A stretch of 36,883 nt of DNA from Candidatus Gastranaerophilales bacterium. Its GTDB lineage: Bacteria; Cyanobacteriota; Vampirovibrionia; Gastranaerophilales; Gastranaerophilaceae. Location: contig CALUVN010000019.1 of the NCBI GenBank assembly GCA_944324235.1, positions 1 to 36,883 of the forward strand. The letters run 5' to 3'. Shown here piece after piece: positions 19,438 through 32,026 of this stretch. Under the pieces are notes generated by a model. It made no database searches, had not been told where the DNA came from, and saw only the letters and a list, made by a program, of their open reading frames with translations. Numbering within the stretch: the stretch's first letter is position 1; every line of letters starts with the position of its first letter. The position numbers and the translations under genes were made by a program.

Positions 19438-20082
19438 CTAGTTGTAGCTTGTTACAAGCCCTTGAACAATTAACGCCCACCCGTCTACAGCTATAAATAT
19501 CAGAAGCTTAAACGGAAGAGAAATAATCGTTGGTGATAACATAAACATACCGAGTGCAAGCAATATATTTGCAACAACAAGGTCTAAAACGATAAACGGC
19601 ACAAATATTATAAATCCTATTTCAAATGCGGTTTTAAGTTCACTTATAATATATGCCGGCGCAACCTGCCAGATTGTAATTTCTTCAGGAGTTTTCGGCG
19701 GTTCTTTCTGTGAAAGTTCTACGAAAAATGCCAGATCGGTTTCTCTTGTCTGTTTCATCATAAATTCTTTCAGAGGTTTTGAACCTTCCTGAATTGCCAT
19801 AATGATATTCTGGCTGTTTTGGTAAGGGACTGACCCCATGTCGTACATTTTCTGGAATGTAGAACCCATTGTAAAAAATGTCAAAATCATTGACAAACCG
19901 ATGATTACGATTGATGGCGGAACCTGTTGAGTTCCCATTGCTGTTTTTAGCATTGAAAATACGATTACAAATCTTAAAAAGCTTGTCATACAGCAGAATA
20001 CAAACGGCAGTAATGAAAATACAGTCATTACTATCAGCATTTGTAAAACCGGATTTAAATTATTCAAAAGTCCTGCATCCAT
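19438..20082 (-). CDS. fliP: Flagellar export gate protein FliP
   Basis: 214 aa, four membrane helices. Typical stretches are TSFLRFVIVFSMLKTAMGTQQVPPSIVIIGLSMILTFF (the usual PPN is PPS here) and the periplasmic loop with PLKEFMMKQTRETDLAFFVEL. PAYIISELKTAFEIGFIIFVPFIVLDLVVANILLALGM is also present, with the near-universal ELKTAF.IGF.I..PF..ID motif. There is no cleaved signal peptide, unlike enterobacterial FliP. AAGGA lies before the ATG. It follows fliO by 14 bases and precedes fliQ by 12, the standard fliOPQR order. Confidence 0.96.
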   Translation of the reverse strand: MDAGLLNNLNPVLQMLIVMTVFSLLPFVFCCMTSFLRFVIVFSMLKTAMGTQQVPPSIVIIGLSMILTFFTMGSTFQKMYDMGSVPYQNSQNIIMAIQEGSKPLKEFMMKQTRETDLAFFVELSQKEPPKTPEEITIWQVAPAYIISELKTAFEIGFIIFVPFIVLDLVVANILLALGMFMLSPTIISLPFKLLIFIAVDGWALIVQGLVTSYN

Positions 20083-20096
20083 AGTATAATCCTTCT

Positions 20097-20471
20097 TTAT
20101 AAGTTAATTCTTTTAACCATTTCTTTGATAACGGCTTTTTTGCGCGGTGAATAATTGGTAATATCAGGTAATTCGTCAACCGAATGCAATCGTTCGGATT
20201 TAACGGCAGGTTCTGCTTTTTCTTCTTCAAGTTTTGAAATCAAAGTGGTTCTATCCATATCTGAAGCGATTAGAAATTTTTCATTGCCTGCTCTTACAAT
20301 ATAAAGAGTTTTTCTCGGGGTAAGACTCATAGCGTCTTCCACTCCCAGAAATTTAGAGCGGCTTTTCCCGCCAGGCATGACTGAAGTTTTTTTGTAAATA
20401 AAAAGTGCAAGAAATATTACCCCGACCATTGCGAGTGTATATACCATAAAGTTTACTAAATATCCGCTCAT
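20097..20471 (-). CDS. fliO: FliO-like flagellar assembly protein
   Basis: 124 aa. One N-terminal membrane helix (YLVNFMVYTLAMVGVIFLALFIYKK) is followed by a small cytoplasmic beta-domain, MSLTPRKTLYIVRAGNEKFLIASDMDRTTLISKL, which matches the FliO pattern of L.p.k.lylV..g....liG.... and ends in a charged tail. FliO acts as a scaffold during FliP ring assembly. AAGGGGAG precedes the ATG. It sits between the switch protein and fliP, the position FliO holds in most flagellar operons. Sequence conservation of FliO is weak, so position carries much of the call. Confidence 0.82.
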   Translation of the reverse strand: MSGYLVNFMVYTLAMVGVIFLALFIYKKTSVMPGGKSRSKFLGVEDAMSLTPRKTLYIVRAGNEKFLIASDMDRTTLISKLEEEKAEPAVKSERLHSVDELPDITNYSPRKKAVIKEMVKRINL

Positions 20472-20509
20472 TTTTAATCTCCCCTTAGTCTTTAAAAAAG
20501 TGAATTTAA

Positions 20510-21706
20510 TTAGATATCATCTTCAAGTTCAAAGTCGCTGTAATCAAATTCATCTTCTTCATTTCCTCCATCAGCGCCGGTCTGGGCTTCAGTTTGTTCA
20601 GTTTCTTCAGTTCCGACCGAATCATTTGCAAATGATTCTTCTTCCTGAATATCATCATCCTGAACTTTTTCTTGTTTTACGGCTGCAGGTTTGCCGGAAC
20701 CTTTTTCTGCTACTTCTTTAATCTTTACACCGTACCTGTCGTTGATAATGACAAGTTCTCCTTTTGCGATAAATTTGCCCTCAACGCTGAGTGTAACCAT
20801 ATTTTCATAAATTGAAGTCAGGTCAACCACCATCCCCTGTTCAATCTTTTTCAAATCGCCAAGAGATATTTTGATAGCGTCAAATTCGCCTATCATATCA
20901 ACTTCTATACTATCCCACAAGTTTGGATTACCTGCAGTCATATTTTCACCTCCATCTTCATCCGTAACCATAACAAGTCCTAAATTCGGATTAAGTTTTA
21001 CATCAAATTCATTGTCTTTGTATATTAATTTTACTTTTTTAATATTACTGTTTTCGAAAACAACAATATCTTCTACATCAAGTTCTTTAACATCCAGCAT
21101 TGAAAATCTGGTAACGCCGATTCTTACTTTTGTTGTAATCGTGCTGGCAAGAAAATCGTCATTATCAAATTTGTTTACACCTTCCGGTACACTTTGAGGA
21201 TTCATCAATACAGCAGGAACAGAAACGATGAATTTTGCAACCGCGCCTTCATTTTCATCCTTCAGTAAAAATGTCAGATGAATCATATCAAAATTTACCC
21301 TTTTTAAAAGGTTCGGAGCAGGCGGTATTAAAAGCTGCGATACCGAGCCGAATAAAAAGTCATTAAATGCCGTAATAATTTTTGTTTCAAGTTCTGTCAG
21401 GTTATTCAGGTTAAATCCTCTGTTGGAGCGTCCCAGTATTCTGTTTAAAATTGCACTGATAGCCTGTTCAGATGCTCTGAAGAACATATCATGTTCGTCA
21501 TCAATACGGACTTTTGTTACAAAATAGTAACTTTTGTCCATAAGGGTATTAATATTTTTACTTATTCCCAGCAGTCTGAATGTAAAGCCCGGGGTAAAAA
21601 ATTCATCACAAGTTTCCTGCAGTACCGGCGGAAAAACATCCTTATACCACTGGTATTGATAATACAATTCGCGAGATTCAATTGAGTCTAAGGTTTCATT
21701 CGTCAT
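20510..21706 (-). CDS. Flagellar motor switch protein with two SpoA regions (FliM/FliN/FliY-like)
   Basis: 398 aa, first gene of the flagellar operon. The N-terminal 165 residues (FFRASEQAISAILNRILGR, ELETKIITAFNDFLFGSVSQLL) resemble the middle domain of FliM/FliY. Two SpoA-like beta regions follow: residues about 190-250 (TTKVRIGVTRFSMLDVKELDVEDIVVFENSNIKKVKLIY) and about 270-335 (VDMIGEFDAIKISLGDLKKIEQGMVVDL...GELVIINDRYGVKIKEV), the second very FliN-like. The last 60 residues are strongly acidic. Two SpoA domains in one chain could supply both the FliM-type and FliN-type units of the C-ring. There is no N-terminal LSQ.EID CheY-binding motif. Confidence 0.85.
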   Translation of the reverse strand: MTNETLDSIESRELYYQYQWYKDVFPPVLQETCDEFFTPGFTFRLLGISKNINTLMDKSYYFVTKVRIDDEHDMFFRASEQAISAILNRILGRSNRGFNLNNLTELETKIITAFNDFLFGSVSQLLIPPAPNLLKRVNFDMIHLTFLLKDENEGAVAKFIVSVPAVLMNPQSVPEGVNKFDNDDFLASTITTKVRIGVTRFSMLDVKELDVEDIVVFENSNIKKVKLIYKDNEFDVKLNPNLGLVMVTDEDGGENMTAGNPNLWDSIEVDMIGEFDAIKISLGDLKKIEQGMVVDLTSIYENMVTLSVEGKFIAKGELVIINDRYGVKIKEVAEKGSGKPAAVKQEKVQDDDIQEEESFANDSVGTEETEQTEAQTGADGGNEEDEFDYSDFELEDDI

Positions 21707-23030: not shown

Positions 23031-23456
23031 TTATGAAACAGCTTCTGCAACATCATCAATATTATCTACTGCATCTTCAACAATCCCATCAGCTTTACCT
23101 TTTTTAAACAAATTAGCAGCAGCATCCCAGGTGTGTTTAGTTACCCATTCACAACCTTCAGCCAGCTTGTTGATACCGTTCTTAAACCAGCCTGCAGCAT
23201 CATCTAATTGTTGAGGTTTGAAACCTAATTTATTAGCACCAACCATAGCACCTGCCACAACAACAGCAGCAAGCAAAACTTTACCTATGGTTTTCATTGC
23301 ACTGCCTTTTTTCTTTTCTTCAACCGGTTGAGTTTCTTCAGCTTTTGTGAATTTACCCTGACGGTTAATTAAATCTTGAATATCTTTTTGAGAATTTGCA
23401 GCCTGAGCTTTAGGCGCTTCACCACGAAAACTTACACCTGACACAGAACTAATCAT
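23031..23456 (-). CDS. Small membrane protein with VSFRG N-terminus, 141 aa
   Basis: MISSVSGVSFRGE opens the protein. A short V-S-F-(K/R)-G motif at the start is, from memory, shared by many otherwise unrelated proteins of Gastranaerophilales and may be a lineage-specific tag. Residues 24-50 are charged. IGKVLLAAVVVAGAMVGANKLGF (57-79) is one membrane helix. The C-terminal 60 residues are amphipathic (DAAGWFKNGINKLAEGCEWVTKHTWDAAANLFKKGKADGIVEDAVDNIDDVAEAVS). AAGGAGG eight bases before the ATG is a very strong ribosome binding site, suggesting abundance. Convergent with hemW. Function unknown. Confidence 0.75.
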   Translation of the reverse strand: MISSVSGVSFRGEAPKAQAANSQKDIQDLINRQGKFTKAEETQPVEEKKKGSAMKTIGKVLLAAVVVAGAMVGANKLGFKPQQLDDAAGWFKNGINKLAEGCEWVTKHTWDAAANLFKKGKADGIVEDAVDNIDDVAEAVS

Positions 23457-23565: not shown

Positions 23566-23643
23566 TGTTACAAAAATTTACGAAAATTTTGGAATATTTT
23601 TTTGCCATGTGCAATCTATATTATTACAGGAGGAAAAAAGATT

Positions 23644-26600
23644 ATGGAATCAGGACAGGAAACATTAATTTATATAGAAGAAAACGATAAAGCAGAAGCC
23701 GGAATTCAGTCAAAAGGTTTTGCAAAAGCAGAGGTGAAAAACAGAGCGTATATAAATACTCTTGGCGTAGAACTCGGGCTTAAGTATCTTGCATCGGAAG
23801 GCATTAATGTTTCAAATCTTCATAATCTGCATTCGGTTCATAAGTTTTTGGAAGAATTTGACATAGCTGATATTATCCTGCCGAATGTCCATATTGATGT
23901 CCGTGTTGTATTCAGTGACAAATTTATCTTTGTTCCGAAGAGCCATTTTGAATACGGTCTTACTCCTGATATTTATCTTGTGTTCCAGTTGGCTGAAGAT
24001 CACAGCCATGTAAAAGTTCTGGGATTTTTTGAACCGAAACTTATCAATAAGAATAACCAGAACAGAGATTATTATTTTATTGAAAAAGAAAAGCTTACTC
24101 CTATAATTAATCTCAAATCTTATATTGAAAAATGTGCAAATAATACTTCTCAAATTCTTGATAAAAATGTAATTTCGGCATTAGAGGCAAATTTTGTTTC
24201 TATGGTTGATAATGATTTACACGAAAACGATAAAAAAAATCTTATAAGTAATCTGCTTAAGTCTGATGAATTAAGAGACAAATTTATTGAATACAGTAAT
24301 TTTGAAATTCTTTCATACAGAGCAGCAAACAATGAAGATTTTAAAGATTTGTTATCAGAACAGCCGGAAGTTTCGGTTCAGGAATCAGCACCTTCAATCG
24401 CAGCAGTTTCTGCGGAAACTATAACAGAGGAAGCACCGATAGAAGAATCTTCACCAGAAGAAACTCCTGTACAGGAAACGCCTGCGTTGTCTGAAGAAAT
24501 GTCTGCAGTTGAAGAAATGCAAGAAATTCCTGCAGTTGACGAAGCTCTAGCTGCGGATGCCCCTGTTATTGAAGATATTGTTGAGTCTAATATCGACGAA
24601 ACAATAATTGAAAATATTAATCCGGATATTGATATTAATGAAGATTTGCCTAAAGCTGAACCTGCGGAAGCGGCTGATGAGTTTGATTTGTTTGATAAGA
24701 ATACGGATGAGTTCGAAACTCAAAATGAACCTCAGTCACAGCCATTGATTGAAGAGGATTTATCCTCTCATGACATGTCTTCTGAAAATTTGACAGCCGA
24801 TGATATGGCAGTATTAGATGAGATTGCTGCAACCGAAGCACCGGTTAATGATATAGAAATTCAATCTCAGCAAGCAGAAATTCCGCAAGACGAAACTTCG
24901 ATAGAAGAGCTATTTCCTGATATGGTAGAAAATATTGCTGCGTCCGAAGATTCTTACACGGAGGATTCTGCCGCAAGTCAGTCTCTTGATGACTTTTTAA
25001 ATGAAACCACCCCAAAAGATGATGCAGACAGTGATATTGAGTATATTGAAAATGTTGCTCCTGCAGAAATTAATATTGATGAAAATCCTGAAGAAGCCAT
25101 GCGCGGTTATACAACACCGAAGGAAACAGAACCTCAGGAACTTATAAATTTTGATGATATAGACATCAGTGTTACGGAAGGTATTGAAAATTACAGAAAA
25201 GATGATTACTCTTCTAATGATGCCGTGGCATTTGATGTGCTGGAACCGATGTCTTTAAATGTCGATTTATCAAATTCAGGTGACGATGAAGGACAATTTA
25301 TCACTTCACTTTCTGCAGATGAAGCAGTGATGAACAACGAAAAAATTCGCCAGCAAGATATTAAAACGGATATTATTGATAAACAAATAACAGGAATCGG
25401 CGCGATTGATACTATAAGTGCAAACCATGACGAAGATTTGGCCGTAGATATTGATGCTCTTCCGTCAATAGATAATTTGGAAAGTTTTGACAATATTAAT
25501 ACAGATGAACTTCTGCAGCCTATAGATTCAAGTGATATGCTTGATAAAACTATATCAGAGCCGGCAGAAGAAATGTCAATGCCTGAAGAACTTTCTGCTG
25601 ACGCAATAGAAGAATTATCCTCTAATGAAAACGTAACGGATGCGTTTAATACTTCTTCGCTGGAAGATATTACAAGTTCAAACGCTCAGGAAAATTTGCC
25701 TGAAAAAACAGAGCCCGAATCTTTGCCGGAAATTGATAATTTAAGTTTGACACCGGAATCGTTTGAAGAATTAAATGATAATACAGGTTTATTAGATACT
25801 GAAAGTTTAGGTAATATTGAACCTCTGGAAGCTTTGGATAGTCTTGAAGATACAAATATTGATACTGCTTTGGATAATGATAGCAAAATAACATCAGATG
25901 CCTCAGCAAATACTTCCGATATTGATTTGCTGTTTCCTAAAACAGAGCAAAATAATATATCTGCAGAAAAATCAGAAAAGTCTGCCCCTGCAGATTCACC
26001 GCAAGAAGAACTGTTGAGTTTTGCATCTGATGAATTGCCGGTACAAGAGCCTCAAGAAACAGCACAGCAAGAAGAATTAATGACGCTGCCATCGTTTGAA
26101 GAAGATAAAAAAGCTGAAGAAAGTATCCTTCCTGAAGTTACTGATATTTTTCATGAAGCGGGCTCAGGAGAAGAATTATTGCCGGCAGAAAACAATTCTG
26201 TACCGCAGCAAAATACAAATAAAGAGGGCGCAACGGCTGCAGACTCTGCAGAATTAATTTCATTTGCAGAGGATACGCCTGCTGAAACTCCTGCAAATGA
26301 TGACATGCCGTTTACATTGCTGGATGATAATGCAGCAGCTCCAAAACCTGTAAATCTTGAAAATGCAAACCTTTCTTTAGACTCTGCCAGACCTACGTTA
26401 AAAGATGAACTGTCAGCAGCAATGTCTGATGATTTGAGTGCAACCCCTGCAGAGCTTGATTCCAAAAATATTCTTGCGGAAATTGACACCCTTCTGGGTA
26501 CAGAATCTGAGAATACTTATGCAAATGTAAATACACAAAATGAAAATAATCAAAATACATTACGTTTCCAAGACCCTCCGGAACAGGATTTGAGTCCTGA

Positions 26601-27288
26601 AGAAACAATCTATATGCAAACAATGGCAAAGGAAAAGGGTAAAAAAGGCGTTACTTTTCTTCTTGTTATTGTAGCCGCAATGATGGGTGTCTTTGCAGTA
26701 ACAACATTTTTGAAAAATAATAAAACAGCAGATAATTCTGCTTTTACTACACCAAGAGAAGATGAAATTATTGACAATTTCAATAACGAAACAGGTGCAG
26801 AATCTGTACCAAAAGCTCTTCCTGTAGCAAAAGAAACGGTTAAAGCTGCAGTAAAACCGCCGGTAGAAGTTAAAGAACCTCCTGCCCCGTCCGTAAAAAA
26901 AGAAGCGGCAGCTCCAGCTGTAGAAGCAGCCGTAAAAGGTCACTTCTATCCTGAAGTTAAAAAGATAACATTTGAAATTCCTGATTATCTGTCTTATAGT
27001 GAAGGTATGAGAAAATATCTTCAAACAGTCGGCAGAAGTGTAAAATTATCAGCATCAAGTGATTTGCTGTTGACCTCTGATTATTCAGTAACAGATAGAG
27101 TAAAAATAGTGCTGAAGATGACTCCTTCAGGAAATATTAAGAATTCTGAAGTGGATATAAGCAGCGGTTCACAACAAATTGATGACATAGTGTTACAATC
27201 TGTTAAAAATACTTTAGATGTCGTAAAACCCCCTGCTGGTGAGGTTAAAGGGGATGAATTTAATTTAGCTGTTATCATAAACTTTTAA
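23644..27288 (+). CDS. 1214-aa one-pass membrane protein: DUF1822-like head, acidic linker, TonB-C-like tail
   Basis: The ATG at 23644 has GGAGG ten bases upstream; the longer frame from 23602 has no site. Residues about 35-155 (NTLGVELGLKYLASEGINV, DIADIILPNVHIDVRVVF, FIFVPKSHF, DIYLVFQLAEDHSHVKVLGFF) follow the cyanobacterial DUF1822 pattern. Residues about 240-990 are low-complexity, very acidic (Glu, Asp, Ser, Ala, Pro; many EE, PAE, DE). One membrane helix is at about 1003-1024 (VTFLLVIVAAMMGVFAVTTFL), then a Lys/Pro/Ala linker. Residues about 1145-1214 (VKIVLKMTPSGNIKNSEVDISSGSQQIDDIVLQSV) look like a TonB C-terminal domain. So the head is cytoplasmic and the tail periplasmic. It is the first gene of an operon with a sigma factor. 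Confidence 0.78.
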   Translation: MESGQETLIYIEENDKAEAGIQSKGFAKAEVKNRAYINTLGVELGLKYLASEGINVSNLHNLHSVHKFLEEFDIADIILPNVHIDVRVVFSDKFIFVPKSHFEYGLTPDIYLVFQLAEDHSHVKVLGFFEPKLINKNNQNRDYYFIEKEKLTPIINLKSYIEKCANNTSQILDKNVISALEANFVSMVDNDLHENDKKNLISNLLKSDELRDKFIEYSNFEILSYRAANNEDFKDLLSEQPEVSVQESAPSIAAVSAETITEEAPIEESSPEETPVQETPALSEEMSAVEEMQEIPAVDEALAADAPVIEDIVESNIDETIIENINPDIDINEDLPKAEPAEAADEFDLFDKNTDEFETQNEPQSQPLIEEDLSSHDMSSENLTADDMAVLDEIAATEAPVNDIEIQSQQAEIPQDETSIEELFPDMVENIAASEDSYTEDSAASQSLDDFLNETTPKDDADSDIEYIENVAPAEINIDENPEEAMRGYTTPKETEPQELINFDDIDISVTEGIENYRKDDYSSNDAVAFDVLEPMSLNVDLSNSGDDEGQFITSLSADEAVMNNEKIRQQDIKTDIIDKQITGIGAIDTISANHDEDLAVDIDALPSIDNLESFDNINTDELLQPIDSSDMLDKTISEPAEEMSMPEELSADAIEELSSNENVTDAFNTSSLEDITSSNAQENLPEKTEPESLPEIDNLSLTPESFEELNDNTGLLDTESLGNIEPLEALDSLEDTNIDTALDNDSKITSDASANTSDIDLLFPKTEQNNISAEKSEKSAPADSPQEELLSFASDELPVQEPQETAQQEELMTLPSFEEDKKAEESILPEVTDIFHEAGSGEELLPAENNSVPQQNTNKEGATAADSAELISFAEDTPAETPANDDMPFTLLDDNAAAPKPVNLENANLSLDSARPTLKDELSAAMSDDLSATPAELDSKNILAEIDTLLGTESENTYANVNTQNENNQNTLRFQDPPEQDLSPEETIYMQTMAKEKGKKGVTFLLVIVAAMMGVFAVTTFLKNNKTADNSAFTTPREDEIIDNFNNETGAESVPKALPVAKETVKAAVKPPVEVKEPPAPSVKKEAAAPAVEAAVKGHFYPEVKKITFEIPDYLSYSEGMRKYLQTVGRSVKLSASSDLLLTSDYSVTDRVKIVLKMTPSGNIKNSEVDISSGSQQIDDIVLQSVKNTLDVVKPPAGEVKGDEFNLAVIINF

Positions 27289-27328
27289 TTATGATATAAT
27301 GTTGCAGGAACAAGGAAATTCATAAGAA

Positions 27329-27901
27329 GTGGAATTAGCTCAAGACAAAATAGATTTAATAGAAAAAATTATTAAAAACGATAGAAAATTTGCAAATAAC
27401 GAAGATTTGTATGATGACTTCTTTAACGAAACTTGCAAACGTTCACTGGTTATCGTTAAAACAATAACTTCTGATGCAACGCTGGAAGCGTATCTGAAGA
27501 AAATTGCAACCACCTCAATTTTAAATGTTTTAAAAGATTCCGGCAGATTAAGACGAAGCCGGGCAGGTTTTGTCCCAACAAGAGAACTGCCGCTTGAAGA
27601 GGTCTCCAAGTCTGAATCAGGTATTGATTATTCCGGCGTAAAAATAAGTTATGAGGCTGCCTATATTGCCAATACTCCGGAAGATGCCGCATTGCAAAAC
27701 GAAATTATTCAGCGAGTTGCTTCAGCTTTAAAGAAGATTGATAGTGAAGAACCTGAAAAACAATTTTTGAATATCTATAAATTACGTTTTGAAGACGGGA
27801 TGACCCAAAAAGAGATTGCATCTGAACTTAATATTTCACAATCGGAAATTTCCAAAAGACTGTTCAAATTAATGGAAAGAGTCAAGCAGTTTTTTAATTA
27901 A
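27329..27901 (+). CDS. Small sigma-70-family (ECF-like) factor, 190 aa
   Basis: Region 2-like part: YDDFFNETCKRSLVIVKTITSDATLEAYLKKIATTSILNVLKDSGRLRRSR, where AYLKKIATTSILN.L.. resembles region 2.3/2.4. Region 4: AALQNEIIQRVASALKKI...FLNIYKLRFEDGMTQKEIASELNISQSEISKRLFKLMERVKQFF is a clear sigma-4 helix-turn-helix. There is no sigma-3, so it is an ECF-size factor. The start is GTG at 27329; AAGGA lies about 12 bases upstream, so translation may be inefficient or coupled. It follows the 1214-aa gene by 40 bases and precedes the STAND gene by 14. There is no separate anti-sigma gene; its neighbours may fill that role. Confidence 0.85.
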   Translation: MELAQDKIDLIEKIIKNDRKFANNEDLYDDFFNETCKRSLVIVKTITSDATLEAYLKKIATTSILNVLKDSGRLRRSRAGFVPTRELPLEEVSKSESGIDYSGVKISYEAAYIANTPEDAALQNEIIQRVASALKKIDSEEPEKQFLNIYKLRFEDGMTQKEIASELNISQSEISKRLFKLMERVKQFFN

Positions 27902-27915
27902 ACGAAGTTTAAATT

Positions 27916-30870
27916 ATGAAATGTCCAATATGTAAAAAAACAATTCCCGACGATTCGATAAAATGTCCGTATTGCAAAACAAGAACAGGTTTAGTTTGTC
28001 AAAATTGTAATACGGTAAATTCTATTTTTGACTTAAAATGTAAAAACTGCGGCGAAGAAATATTAAAAGTATGTCCTGAATGTAAAAGTGTAAATTTCCC
28101 GACAGCAACCAGATGCAGAAAATGTAACTACAGTTTTTCCGATAATGCACAAAAGTTGTCGGCAAATCCTCTTGAATATCAATCACGTTTATACACGCAA
28201 AATAATGCCATCAATACTTTGACAAAAGGTATTCTTTCAAACGATAAGAAGATTTTTTCGGTTAACGGTGTGCGCGGAATAGGCAAATCAGTTGTAATCA
28301 AAAAAGTTTTGGAAAATTTGCGCGTAAATAATTATCTGTATTGCATTGGCAGATGCACCCCAATAACACAGCTCACATCTGGCGGATTGATACAGGATAT
28401 TCTTTTGAATATTTTTAACCTGCCTATTTTTTGTGTGAACAATCCAAAATTCAAAAAAGATGCGTCCCGTTTTTTTCAGAACGAATTTCCAACACTTTCC
28501 AATGCGGAAATTTTACATCTTTTGAATTTTTTATATCCGTTTCAGGATGATACGTTTGAGAATTTAATAATTAACAAGAAGAAAACATTTGAGCTTTTGA
28601 CAAATATATTTTCAATATTAAATGAATCATATAATATTCTTTTCGTAATTGATAATTTTGATTTTATAGACGGATTTTCATATGAATTTCTTTCAAGTTT
28701 AATAAAAAAAGAAGAAATCTGGCAAAAGTTAAAACTGGTTTTGGTTTATAATGAGTCACGTCCTGCGAAGGGATATTTTTCATTTCCTGACAGAAAAGAG
28801 AATGTGTATGCAGATATCGGAATAGCTCCGTTTGAAAAAAGCGGCATGCAGAAATTTATAGAACATTTTGAAGAACATCAGAAGGATTTTCCATATATTG
28901 AAAATGAGGAAAGGGAACGTATATTCAAGCTATGCGGCGGCAATCCTTCATATCTTGAGCAAATATTGAGTTTGAAAGCAGACTGCAGAAGAAATGATTA
29001 TGTATTTGATATGCCGATTTCATACACCGAAACCATAAGCAAAAGACTTGCATTGCTGGAAGTCTCAAATCCTGATGCCTATAAGCTTTTAACCGGCGCT
29101 GCAGTTCTTGGAGACAGAATAAATCTGCAGCTCATAAAACAAATTTTCGGATATGATGATTCTGAGTTTAGTAACGCTGTTAGTACATTAGAGAAAATGA
29201 ATTTTATAGAGCCGTATAATGAAGTTTTTGCGGAATTTAAAAATATTAATTTGTGGGAAAATATTTTGACCTGCGCAAAAGTTTCAGATAAATTTATACC
29301 GTTAAATAAAACACTTTATGAAGCCTTAAGTCCGTTGACGTTAAATTCTAATTCAATATTCGGCATAATAGCTCAAAATTTAAAAAATAATGAACTTGCA
29401 CTTGAAATATGGACCAAAAACACAAAATTATCAGCCGGCATAGGAGATACAAACCTGTATGCAATATCGCAAAAACAATGTCTGGCTTTAATAAATGAAA
29501 TGGATGAAAGTGTTACTCTCAAAACACGATATAATATCTCAGAACGTCTGGGAAAACTTCTTGCGGATGCAAATCCGAAAGAAGCAATGGAATATCTGCC
29601 GGATGCAATAGCAAATGCACAGGCAGTGGGTGATACCCCGAGAGAAATAGAGCTTTTAGGCTATATGGCATCCTGTTGCCGCAAAACCGGCAATTATTTT
29701 GGAGATGTCGAATGTATTGATACGGTATTGGAAAAAGTTAAACCGGAAAAGACTCTTGAAATAGCTCTTTTAAAGGCATCAAAATTATCATCCCTTCTCA
29801 ATATAGGTAATTGCGGGCAGATAATTAATATGGTAGATAATGAGATTATGCCTGTACTGGATGAATATTTGAGCAAGTCATATACAAATAAACTTATTTC
29901 GCAGGATATCGTGCAGGAAACCTGGATAAAAACGTATCTGTTGCTTGCAAATGCACTAATCATTCAAGGTAATGACCGTTCATTTGAGATTTTGACAATA
30001 TTATTTGATATAATTCAACGTAATAATATTCAGGATGAATTGTTTATATGCAAATGTAAACTGGCACTGGCGTTTGCCAATACAATAAAAGGTGAAACAG
30101 CCGTTTCTGAAGAAATTCTTGAAGATGTGCTCAAATTGTATAAAGATAACGTTATGGATAATGAAGCTGTTATCAGATGGAATTTTATAAACATAATTAA
30201 TAATTTTATCCGCAAACGTTATGACGGCTTACAGGAAGAATTGTTCCAGATTGTAACATTCGCAAACAACAACGGCGATAATTTTACAAAAAATATTTTA
30301 AAAACTTTATTGGGCAAAATATTCAAAGATAATGAACAGTCCAAGCACGCAATGGAAATATACAGCGATCAGATAACTTATTTTGCTAAAGAAAAAATGG
30401 CACTCGGTGCGCTTCTGACGTGGTATTTAATAGCAGATGCAACGCTTATAACAGAAGGTCCTCATAACGCTATTGATATAGCATCACAGGCACTGGATGT
30501 TGCTAAAAATCCTAAAATAGATAACTATTTCTTTAATATTTTACTCAGGATGGTAATAGTCAAAGCCAGCATAACAATTTCCGATTATGAACAGGCTGAA
30601 ATGAATCTTGAAAGTGCCATTAGTCTCGCGAAGAAATTTAATTTGAAAGATTTGCTTTCAAGACTTTATCTTCTTTACGGGAAATATTATCAGGAATTAG
30701 GTTTTGTAAAATCAGCCCAGCAGCCAGATCAACTGCGGAATGCAATGCTTATGTTTGAAAAAGTCTCAGCGCTTGTCAAAACAACAAGAAACAACTACGT
30801 TCATATCAAAAATGAAAAATCAAAAAATGTTTTGAAATCATTCTGCCAGCTTAACGGTATAAAAATTTAA
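27916..30870 (+). CDS. Zinc-ribbon/STAND ATPase/TPR-like regulator, 984 aa
   Basis: Residues 1-75 form double zinc ribbons (DZANK style): CPIC, CPYC, CQNC, CKNC, CPEC, CRKC, six Cys pairs. Residues about 95-450 are an AAA_16/STAND NTPase: GVRGIGKS (Walker A, 118-125), ILFVIDNFDF (Walker B, 241-250), then CGGNPSYLEQILSL, typical of the STAND winged-helix boundary. Residues about 480-984 are all-helical repeats that suit a TPR solenoid. STAND proteins are signal-driven switches that oligomerise on ligand binding. The weak ribosome binding site (GAAG) 14 bases after the sigma gene implies coupling. Targets unknown; binding the sigma factor is an inference from synteny. Confidence 0.85.
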   Translation: MKCPICKKTIPDDSIKCPYCKTRTGLVCQNCNTVNSIFDLKCKNCGEEILKVCPECKSVNFPTATRCRKCNYSFSDNAQKLSANPLEYQSRLYTQNNAINTLTKGILSNDKKIFSVNGVRGIGKSVVIKKVLENLRVNNYLYCIGRCTPITQLTSGGLIQDILLNIFNLPIFCVNNPKFKKDASRFFQNEFPTLSNAEILHLLNFLYPFQDDTFENLIINKKKTFELLTNIFSILNESYNILFVIDNFDFIDGFSYEFLSSLIKKEEIWQKLKLVLVYNESRPAKGYFSFPDRKENVYADIGIAPFEKSGMQKFIEHFEEHQKDFPYIENEERERIFKLCGGNPSYLEQILSLKADCRRNDYVFDMPISYTETISKRLALLEVSNPDAYKLLTGAAVLGDRINLQLIKQIFGYDDSEFSNAVSTLEKMNFIEPYNEVFAEFKNINLWENILTCAKVSDKFIPLNKTLYEALSPLTLNSNSIFGIIAQNLKNNELALEIWTKNTKLSAGIGDTNLYAISQKQCLALINEMDESVTLKTRYNISERLGKLLADANPKEAMEYLPDAIANAQAVGDTPREIELLGYMASCCRKTGNYFGDVECIDTVLEKVKPEKTLEIALLKASKLSSLLNIGNCGQIINMVDNEIMPVLDEYLSKSYTNKLISQDIVQETWIKTYLLLANALIIQGNDRSFEILTILFDIIQRNNIQDELFICKCKLALAFANTIKGETAVSEEILEDVLKLYKDNVMDNEAVIRWNFINIINNFIRKRYDGLQEELFQIVTFANNNGDNFTKNILKTLLGKIFKDNEQSKHAMEIYSDQITYFAKEKMALGALLTWYLIADATLITEGPHNAIDIASQALDVAKNPKIDNYFFNILLRMVIVKASITISDYEQAEMNLESAISLAKKFNLKDLLSRLYLLYGKYYQELGFVKSAQQPDQLRNAMLMFEKVSALVKTTRNNYVHIKNEKSKNVLKSFCQLNGIKI

Positions 30871-30877
30871 CCTCCGG

Positions 30878-31903
30878 CTATTTTTTTCTGCATAAATACA
30901 GAACATTATCATCATAATCCGCAGGGCCGACTTTCGGGCAAATATTTGCCGGCATATTGTTACCGTCAATTTTTTCCACATCAAATCCAGCATTTTTTAA
31001 ATATGTCGGGAAGTTATCTCCAAAAACTCTCAGATGGTCTATTTGTCCGTAATACACTACTTTTTCTAATTCTGTATCAGCTTTAAATTTATCAAAAGTA
31101 TCAGCATAACTATGGCGTGTTGGTGCAGAAATTATTACAAATCCGCCATGTTTTAATATTCTGTAAAGCTCGCTGATTGCCTTTTGATAATCCTCAACAT
31201 GCTCTAATACGTGGTTGCAAATAGCAATATCCCATTTTTCGCTTTCACAGTTAATATCCTGAATATCATACAGAAAATCACAACCGCTTTTAATATCCGA
31301 TGTAAAATATTTAATACCTGAATTAGATAAAATCTTTTTTTCAGCTCCTCCAAGACCAAATCCGAGAACTTGTTTGTTATTAAATAATTCCAAATTATTC
31401 AGTATAAAATATGATAGAATCCTGTGTCGGGGTAACGAACCGCATTGAGGGCATATTACGGATTTATAATGATTCATATAAATATTTGGATTGAAGTCTG
31501 GTTTAACAAAATCAAACTCCATGAAATTTCTTATGTGATTGCCGCAGCATGGACAATAATATTTTTTAGGCCCGATAAATAATCGGTAATACTTGTTAAT
31601 CCCTCTTACCAACTTATAGCAGGGGATATAAATTTTAGGCAAACCAAGAAATGCTGCAATTACAAAAAATTTAAACTTTGCCCCGCGTGCTGAATTGAAA
31701 TAACTGGCAAAGTTATTAAATATTTTTCTGTTTTCAATAAGTTTCAGTTTTTTATCGGTGTTTTTTCGTGAAAAGTATATGAAACAACGTAATATTTCTA
31801 TAAACTGAATACTTTTATAATCAGTACCGGCAGCCTCTTTCAATGCTTCAAGTTCAGTAAAATCGACTTTTAATTCATCCGGCCAAACATGCTTTGCAGG
31901 CAT
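30878..31903 (-). CDS. Zinc-ribbon SAM-dependent methyltransferase, 341 aa
   Basis: The start is ATG at 31903 with AAGGAG seven bases upstream (a TTG just before it is in frame). The N-terminal 115 residues are helical and not recognised. Zinc-ribbon Cys pairs CPCC (YYCPCCGNHIRNF) and CPQC (VICPQCGSLPRHR) follow. A class I methyltransferase domain of the Methyltransf_11 kind has VLGFGLGGAEKKIL (motif I), FTSDIKSG (acidic end of strand 2), WDIAICNHVLEHVEDYQKAISELYRILKHGGFVIISAP (motifs IV-VI). Zinc-ribbon-methyltransferase fusions of this type occur in surface-glycan loci. It is convergent with the STAND gene, eight bases apart. Substrate unknown. Confidence 0.85.
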   Translation of the reverse strand: MPAKHVWPDELKVDFTELEALKEAAGTDYKSIQFIEILRCFIYFSRKNTDKKLKLIENRKIFNNFASYFNSARGAKFKFFVIAAFLGLPKIYIPCYKLVRGINKYYRLFIGPKKYYCPCCGNHIRNFMEFDFVKPDFNPNIYMNHYKSVICPQCGSLPRHRILSYFILNNLELFNNKQVLGFGLGGAEKKILSNSGIKYFTSDIKSGCDFLYDIQDINCESEKWDIAICNHVLEHVEDYQKAISELYRILKHGGFVIISAPTRHSYADTFDKFKADTELEKVVYYGQIDHLRVFGDNFPTYLKNAGFDVEKIDGNNMPANICPKVGPADYDDNVLYLCRKK

Positions 31904-32026
31904 CAAGCTTCTCCTTTTGTATATTCATAATTCAATACAAATTATTATATAGTCAGATGATATAATTTGACAAATTATTAAAATAAACTCATTAAATATT
32001 AATTATTAAAAAATAATAAATTTTCC

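Follow-up and report, generated by a model that had tools for sequence, protein, structure and literature searches.

An operon of Gastranaerophilales joining an ECF-type sigma factor, a DUF1822 protein with a TonB/TolA-type domain and a zinc-ribbon STAND-like NTPase: a candidate envelope-to-transcription pathway

The closest described relatives of the locus analyzed here come from cyanobacteria, where genes for an ECF sigma factor and a DUF1822 protein were recognized in silico in the neighborhoods of EACC2-caspase genes (Kaur, Iyer, and Aravind, 2021; PMC8195603). For these cyanobacterial sets a role as conflict systems was proposed, in which sensing leads to activation of a protease and to a step in transcription, and the main text of that study mentions neither Melainabacteria nor an anti-sigma factor (PMC8195603). 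A demonstrated precedent for a protease-released pair of ECF sigma factor and inhibitor is Csx30/CASP-sigma, where a CHAT partner is able to open the inhibitor of the sigma factor (PMC10028731). RseA-RpoE and FecR-FecI provide two further points of comparison, as do the TonB/TolA proteins and the zinc-ribbon STAND/AAA_16-TPR signaling proteins.

Here we describe a three-gene operon (genes A, sigma and C) in the 1.94-Mb genome of a Candidatus Gastranaerophilales bacterium, on the contig denoted C19, of which a stretch of 36,883 nucleotides (CALUVN010000019.1, positions 1 to 36,883 of the forward strand; the window) was analyzed. Gastranaerophilales are gut bacteria and non-photosynthetic cousins of cyanobacteria, and little is known of their regulation. 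The features discussed below are, in window coordinates:

23567-23582, plus strand: candidate site for RpaB, an HLR1-like direct repeat GTTACAAAAATTTACG with one mismatch relative to KTTACAWWNNKTTACA
23591-23617, plus strand: ECF-type promoter, -35 GGAATA at 23591-23596 and -10 region GTGCAATCT at 23609-23617
23644-27288, plus strand: gene A, 1214 aa, ATG start at 23644 (ORF listing)
23644-24351, plus strand: A residues 1-236, predicted cytoplasmic DUF1822-family domain (Pfam, AlphaFold, hhalign)
24352-26637, plus strand: A residues 237-998, acidic, poorly conserved stretch (net charge, pairwise distances)
26638-26718, plus strand: A residues 999-1025, transmembrane helix (hydropathy; KEKGKK before the helix)
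26953-27285, plus strand: A residues 1104-1214, predicted periplasmic TonB/TolA-type domain (Pfam, AlphaFold, Foldseek)
27329-27901, plus strand: sigma gene, 190 aa, GTG start at 27329 (ORF listing)
27916-30870, plus strand: gene C, 984 aa, ATG start at 27916 (ORF listing)

The three genes form one operon, separated, as an earlier note on this DNA had it and the ORF listing confirms, by gaps of 40 bases (27289-27328) and 14 bases (27902-27915). The start of A was set at the ATG at 23644 because a possible TTG extension of 14 codons, from 23602, would lie inside the promoter, and because an AGGAGG site precedes 23644. Upstream of the operon stands a hemW-like gene often common to relatives and, upstream of that, on the minus strand (19438-21706), what we take to be flagellar-type genes (FliP-like and FliM-like). 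A divergent small gene (23031-23456; 141 aa, MISSVSGVSFRGE...) has its intergenic region in common with the operon, and a relative of it occupies the equivalent place in many, not all, related genomes. Downstream of C, the genes are common to one close relative only (G076), and a methyltransferase gene that converges on C (30878-31906), its product containing a Cys cluster like that of a zinc ribbon, was matched at the equivalent place in one close relative only. Pfam/NCBIfam scans of the three genes and of neighboring genes gave no peptidase family.

Conservation was surveyed in 38 genomes of the family, spanning 12 genera and including the host's own, and in 79 class members outside the family. 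The order A-sigma-C was found in 37 of the 38, a tally that includes one genome (G049) whose A gene is truncated by the end of a contig, and in the remaining genome (G044) A is split across two contigs, so the arrangement is not a matter of chance. The A-sigma gaps are mostly 29-43 bases (one of 66, one of 106) and the sigma-C gaps 2-17. Both A (Pfam DUF1822, completed by profile) and sigma are present in all 38 family members; in the 79 class genomes outside the family, neither DUF1822 (Pfam) nor sigma (at E <= 1e-6) was found, and protein C gave weak repeat-region or zinc-ribbon matches only. Across the wider family, A was detected in 84/85, C in 95/97, and sigma in 89/97 genomes, a few of the 89 matches being weak and possibly other sigma factors. 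A scan of named genomes with protein C returned 65 loci, mostly from Candidatus Gastranaerophilales/Melainabacteria and the rest mostly from gut bacteria, a few of the labels being evidently wrong (e.g., Fusobacterium sp. CAG:439). Genomes of two basal genera, g64 and g65, have all three genes, but on separate contigs or far apart. The three-gene set is a near-universal, single-copy core of the Gastranaerophilales family examined. The reading frame is broken in A at one locus (L063) and in C at another (L049), and the sigma sequences of g64/g65 are diverged (L160, L161, L162, L229-L241).

Gene A encodes, in order, a DUF1822 domain, an acidic low-complexity linker, a membrane helix, and a TonB/TolA-type C-terminal domain. 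The DUF1822-like N-terminus that the earlier note had suspected is upheld for part of the family model: residues 9-179 score 39.5 bits against PF08852 (gathering cut-off 25; Pfam) and match model positions 1-178 of 370 only, not the whole model, and DUF1822 is over the Pfam cut-off in 34 of the 38 sampled family members. The homology is reciprocal, from the Pfam model to A and from the A profile to cyanobacterial DUF1822: comparison with the latter by hhalign gave 97.2% (E 3e-11) over A residues 9-169, and a 36-ortholog profile of A retrieves cyanobacterial DUF1822 proteins (best E 1e-6). The AlphaFold model of residues 1-236 (pLDDT 92.5) resembles no solved structure in the PDB at E below 0.1 (Foldseek), and searching PDB sequences with a DUF1822 profile gave no match either; no anti-sigma fold is therefore recognized, which counts against an anti-sigma reading of A. 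The top weak Foldseek matches were HincII and, lower, PA endonuclease (prob <=0.13, TM ~0.2), and A contains the nuclease-like residues P108-D109...E130-x-K132; assignment to the PD-(D/E)XK nucleases was rejected, K132 being kept in 22/36 only. A Csx30-like fold drew no support, as no PDB entry matched the DUF1822 model at an E value under 0.1; Csx30 itself is resolved only in part (PMC10028731).

We read 24 cyanobacterial DUF1822 loci. In 11 of them a clear sigma gene directly precedes DUF1822, in agreement with the adjacency that the earlier note had put forward; the match to sigma is weak in one more (L142), and as many as seven others have a short, diverged, possibly sigma-like neighbor. 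These eight short neighbors are classed as possible sigma genes and not among the clear ones, because the profile of the sigma factor described here matches region 4 only (prob 58%) in such proteins of 210-240 aa. Ten large genes downstream of cyanobacterial DUF1822 were scanned: nine encode CHAT, eight of these with CHASE2 or periplasmic-binding domains, and the remaining gene encodes an unrelated chloride channel. As in the cyanobacterial DUF1822/ECF sigma/EACC2-caspase systems, then, a gene with a homologous DUF1822 domain adjoins a gene for a detectably related ECF-type sigma factor, and there is a third large signaling gene. The gene order differs, with sigma first in cyanobacteria and A first here, as does the third gene, which encodes a CHAT protease with a CHASE2/periplasmic-binding receptor there and a zinc-ribbon STAND NTPase here, where a caspase/CHAT peptidase component is missing; moreover, the DUF1822 protein here itself bears a membrane helix and a TonB/TolA domain.

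The acidic stretch of ~760 residues that follows the DUF1822 domain is probably disordered. Residues 237-1016 have a net charge of -171 and no Cys or Trp, and pairwise distances average 0.78 in the middle part, compared with 0.37 for the N domain, a divergence about twice that of both ends. The one membrane helix noted earlier (residues 999-1025, TFLLVIVAAMMGVFAVTTFL) has counterparts in all 34 full-length A orthologs, each with a hydrophobic helix ~175-252 residues from the C-terminus. Beyond it, a Pro/Ala-rich linker precedes the C-terminal domain, whose TonB-C-like character, also proposed in the earlier note, was borne out. At residues 1147-1214, TonB_2/TonB_C fall just below cut-off when the whole protein is scanned, and the isolated domain reaches 25.6 bits for TonB_2 (cut-off 22); the C-terminal 111 residues of the family's A proteins match TonB_2 in 35/37 and TonB_C in 34/37, and the AlphaFold model of the domain (pLDDT 94.4) has TolA/TonB C-terminal domains as its top Foldseek matches (prob 0.92-0.99, E ~0.01-0.03), with modest TM-scores of 0.4-0.5. 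As modeled, A most likely spans from cytoplasm to periplasm, the N-in orientation being drawn from the lysines before the helix and the type of C-terminal domain. The earlier note had named the lack of a DUF1822 or TonB-C match and the lack of synteny as outcomes that would speak against it; both matches, and the synteny, were found.

The C-terminal fold and the Pro/Ala-rich linker are features that A has in common with TonB/TolA, and they would also suit a TonB/TolA-type envelope protein with a structural or energy-transducing task, which would not control sigma while sigma and the STAND protein answer some other input, the operon then being a grouping of envelope functions. Such a role seems to us highly unlikely given that the helix lies near residue 1000 and has no His and no SHLS motif, in contrast to the N-terminal signal anchor of TonB/TolA, whose SHLS-type His serves coupling to ExbB/ExbD or TolQ/R, and that the huge cytoplasmic N-terminal part begins with a DUF1822 domain, whose relatives adjoin sigma genes in another class.

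Gene C encodes three zinc ribbons, then a STAND/AAA_16-like NTPase and TPR-like repeats; of the zinc-ribbon STAND partner described earlier, the STAND-like motifs stand and the ribbons are now counted as three. The double zinc ribbon scores 31.5 bits (cut-off 27.3), and the 12 zinc-ribbon Cys are invariant in 37/37 orthologs. The NTPase part has a Walker A motif G-x4-GK[ST] at 118-125 (G121, G123 and K124 invariant), a Walker B-like DN at 246-247, and a GxP motif, GNP in most orthologs, at 342-344. With the ATPase_2, AAA_16 and TPR_12 matches all below the Pfam cut-off, the label "STAND" is taken from this motif set together with the resemblance to AAA_16/ATPase_2. Position 246 is D or N (sometimes NN), so hydrolysis is not assured, a point against the explanation that we favor below. 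The zinc ribbons, AAA_16-like NTPase and TPR-like repeats are those of zinc-ribbon STAND/AAA_16-TPR signaling proteins, from which C differs in its 12-Cys triple ribbon, in sharing an operon with sigma, and in having no effector or cyclase domain among those found. In several basal genera (L156, L157, L158, L159, L165) C is 1110-1260 aa long, its zinc ribbons being set apart from the NTPase by a further 110-280 residues that match no Pfam family. A second large protein with similar N-terminal zinc ribbons (1181 aa; L094:1492-5037, G000:C7) occurs in every sampled family genome, its middle part also lacking a Pfam match.

STAND NTPases are common immune sensors, and the operon could be read as a conflict or immunity device in which C senses an invader and sigma launches the response. 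The cyanobacterial relatives have been proposed to be such conflict systems (PMC8195603). For the present operon we consider this very improbable: it is single-copy, near-universal in the family and preceded by a promoter common to its members, no toxin, nuclease or protease effector was recognized in it (Pfam/NCBIfam), and its one core copy is unlike the 1 to 9 DUF1822 matches seen in each cyanobacterial genome with any match.

The product of the sigma gene reads as a two-region ECF-type factor (regions 2 and 4) of 190 aa, with TIGR02937 at 70.4 bits (cut-off 42.9) over residues 19-187 and Sigma70_r4 exceeding its cut-off; the families listed do not include the Pfam model for region 2. As in RseA-RpoE and FecR-FecI, the ECF sigma factor is co-transcribed with a single-pass inner-membrane protein (here predicted) that has cytoplasmic and periplasmic parts, and a (here putative) ECF-type promoter stands at its own operon; unlike in those systems, A has no recognizable anti-sigma domain, its tether is acidic and ~760 residues long, its predicted periplasmic part holds a TonB/TolA domain, and there is an extra STAND partner. 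Across 24 genomes, distances between the N domains of A track those between sigma proteins (rho 0.73) more closely than those of the hemW-like neighbor (rho 0.45), which counts for a control system but, as it may reflect shared linkage, is suggestive only.

In all 37 orthologous upstream regions GGAATA is invariant at a fixed position, and in most it is followed at fixed spacing by GTGTMATCT. The pattern GGAATAN12GTGTMATC occurs within 2 mismatches in 34/37 of these regions vs 0/740 dinucleotide shuffles, a comparison that, the pattern being derived from the same sequences, speaks for conservation and says nothing on site function. In genus g3 the -10 reads CGTC with GGAATA unchanged, coinciding with the most divergent sigma proteins (47-49% identity by alignment). 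The form of this putative promoter implies, and does not prove, autoregulation of the operon by its own sigma factor. Genome-wide scans of 15 genomes, which are pattern matches, gave 35 matches with <=1 mismatch vs 13 for the reversed control, and in nearly all 15 one exact or one-mismatch match is the A-sigma-C operon. A broad regulon was rejected on this pattern, the other matches being few and not far above control, and no second target common to the 15 genomes was recognized by it. One recurrent match, GTAATATGAT... (e.g., G000:C55), lies in a gene-dense stretch. In g64/g65 the GGAATA motif was not seen upstream of A, nor was a diverged promoter common to the unlinked A, sigma and C, and the regions upstream of sigma and C contain TATAAT-like sequences. 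That no second regulon promoter was identified and that A in g64/g65 is not preceded by GGAATA both weigh against our favored explanation. Upstream of the cyanobacterial sigma-DUF1822 genes, nothing obvious of the ECF type was seen by eye.

Just upstream of the operon promoter, and directly upstream of its -35, GTTACAAAANTTTACA matches the direct repeat of HLR1, the box at 23567-23582 being compared with KTTACAWWNNKTTACA, which we take to be the HLR1 consensus. RpaB is the HLR1-binding regulator of cyanobacteria. Examples of HLR1 are given in PMC6331805, where boxes upstream of the core promoter accompany activation. The pattern is present in 37/37 upstream regions, 33 of them exact and four, the window copy among these, with one mismatch; at <=1 mismatch it appears in 8/740 dinucleotide shuffles. 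The genome encodes an RpaB equivalog (NF045944, 361.7 bits, cut-off 330; L196:1000-1749), and a 2013 study had already reported homologs of RpaB from Melainabacteria (PMC3787301). Each genome contains 15-52 HLR1 patterns vs 1-12 for the reversed control, an enrichment seen in all 15 genomes, and 19 of the 21 sites examined in the host's own genome are intergenic (L249-L268), so that RpaB appears to have a regulon in this lineage, which is not photosynthetic. Genes downstream of sites in the host's genome, named by eye, include ferritin-like and pyruvate:ferredoxin oxidoreductase-like ones and many for putative surface proteins. The conserved ECF-type promoter with its HLR1-like box is a strong clue absent from the earlier note.

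The explanation we favor is that the operon constitutes one autoregulated, envelope-spanning system for control of a sigma factor. That (anti-)sigma control is exerted by a membrane-anchored A, and that C is the transducer, we hold with moderate confidence, the inhibitory sign being the less certain part. It draws on the conserved gene order, the joint phyletic restriction, the DUF1822 homology and the cyanobacterial sigma-DUF1822 pairing, as well as on the fixed-spacing promoter, the joint change of sigma and -10 in g3, the RpaB equivalog, and the Csx30 precedent. A would sit in the inner membrane, with the cytoplasm containing its DUF1822 domain and its long acidic tether, and the periplasm its TonB/TolA-type domain, where the latter may sense the state of the envelope. 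The DUF1822 domain would bind sigma, so that A as a membrane-anchored anti-sigma factor holds it inactive, and C would be an NTP-dependent switch that works on the complex of A and sigma and allows release. In this C may take the role of the CHAT protease-receptor of the cyanobacterial relatives; that a release step is ascribed to C in an operon without a peptidase counts against the explanation. Freed sigma would read GGAATA-N12-GTGTMATC at its own operon, and probably at other genes too, and RpaB at the adjacent HLR1-like box would add a second input. The sigma-DUF1822 core would thus have been kept and its input exchanged, from a CHAT receptor in cyanobacteria to a TonB/TolA domain and an NTPase switch here. 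The likeness to Csx30/CASP-sigma of type III-E CRISPR lies in an ECF sigma factor, a (here putative) inhibitor and a large third signaling protein, and the difference in the lack of both CRISPR and a protease and of a convincing Foldseek match for the DUF1822 model.

The same genetic evidence would serve equally if A were a positive partner, its DUF1822 domain recruiting or activating sigma or holding it near the membrane, with C repressing or gating; no anti-sigma fold is recognized in A, and the cyanobacterial order sigma-DUF1822-CHAT does not fix the sign. We judge this reversal of sign unlikely, as ECF sigma factors are most commonly regulated by membrane-bound anti-sigma factors (PMC8999054), and the functional analog Csx30 is an inhibitor (PMC10028731).

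Returning to the favored anti-sigma reading, the earlier note knew of no description of such a pathway; the DUF1822-ECF sigma pairing is published for cyanobacteria (PMC8195603), so that the variant found here is what would be new. In the open-licence literature we found no description of the A-sigma-C architecture, its single-copy core status, its promoter or its HLR1 link; as far as that literature shows, the pairing was known in silico, and these four aspects in Gastranaerophilales are new. Taken as a whole, the proposal that a polymorphic DUF1822-sigma system of cyanobacterial type became a single-copy core envelope-to-transcription pathway, with a TonB/TolA-bearing DUF1822 anti-sigma factor, gated by a STAND protein and controlled by its own sigma and RpaB/HLR1, is a tentative one. 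If true, DUF1822 would represent a novel class of domain that binds sigma factors and whose fold is as yet unsolved. Sigma control would be a role that this unassigned family could be tested for where it has one copy, a simpler setting than the multi-copy cyanobacterial loci. An RpaB/HLR1 regulatory code operating without photosynthesis is suggested as well, and bears on the role of RpaB before photosynthetic genes. For Gastranaerophilales themselves, this would be the first proposed sigma circuit leading from the envelope to transcription.
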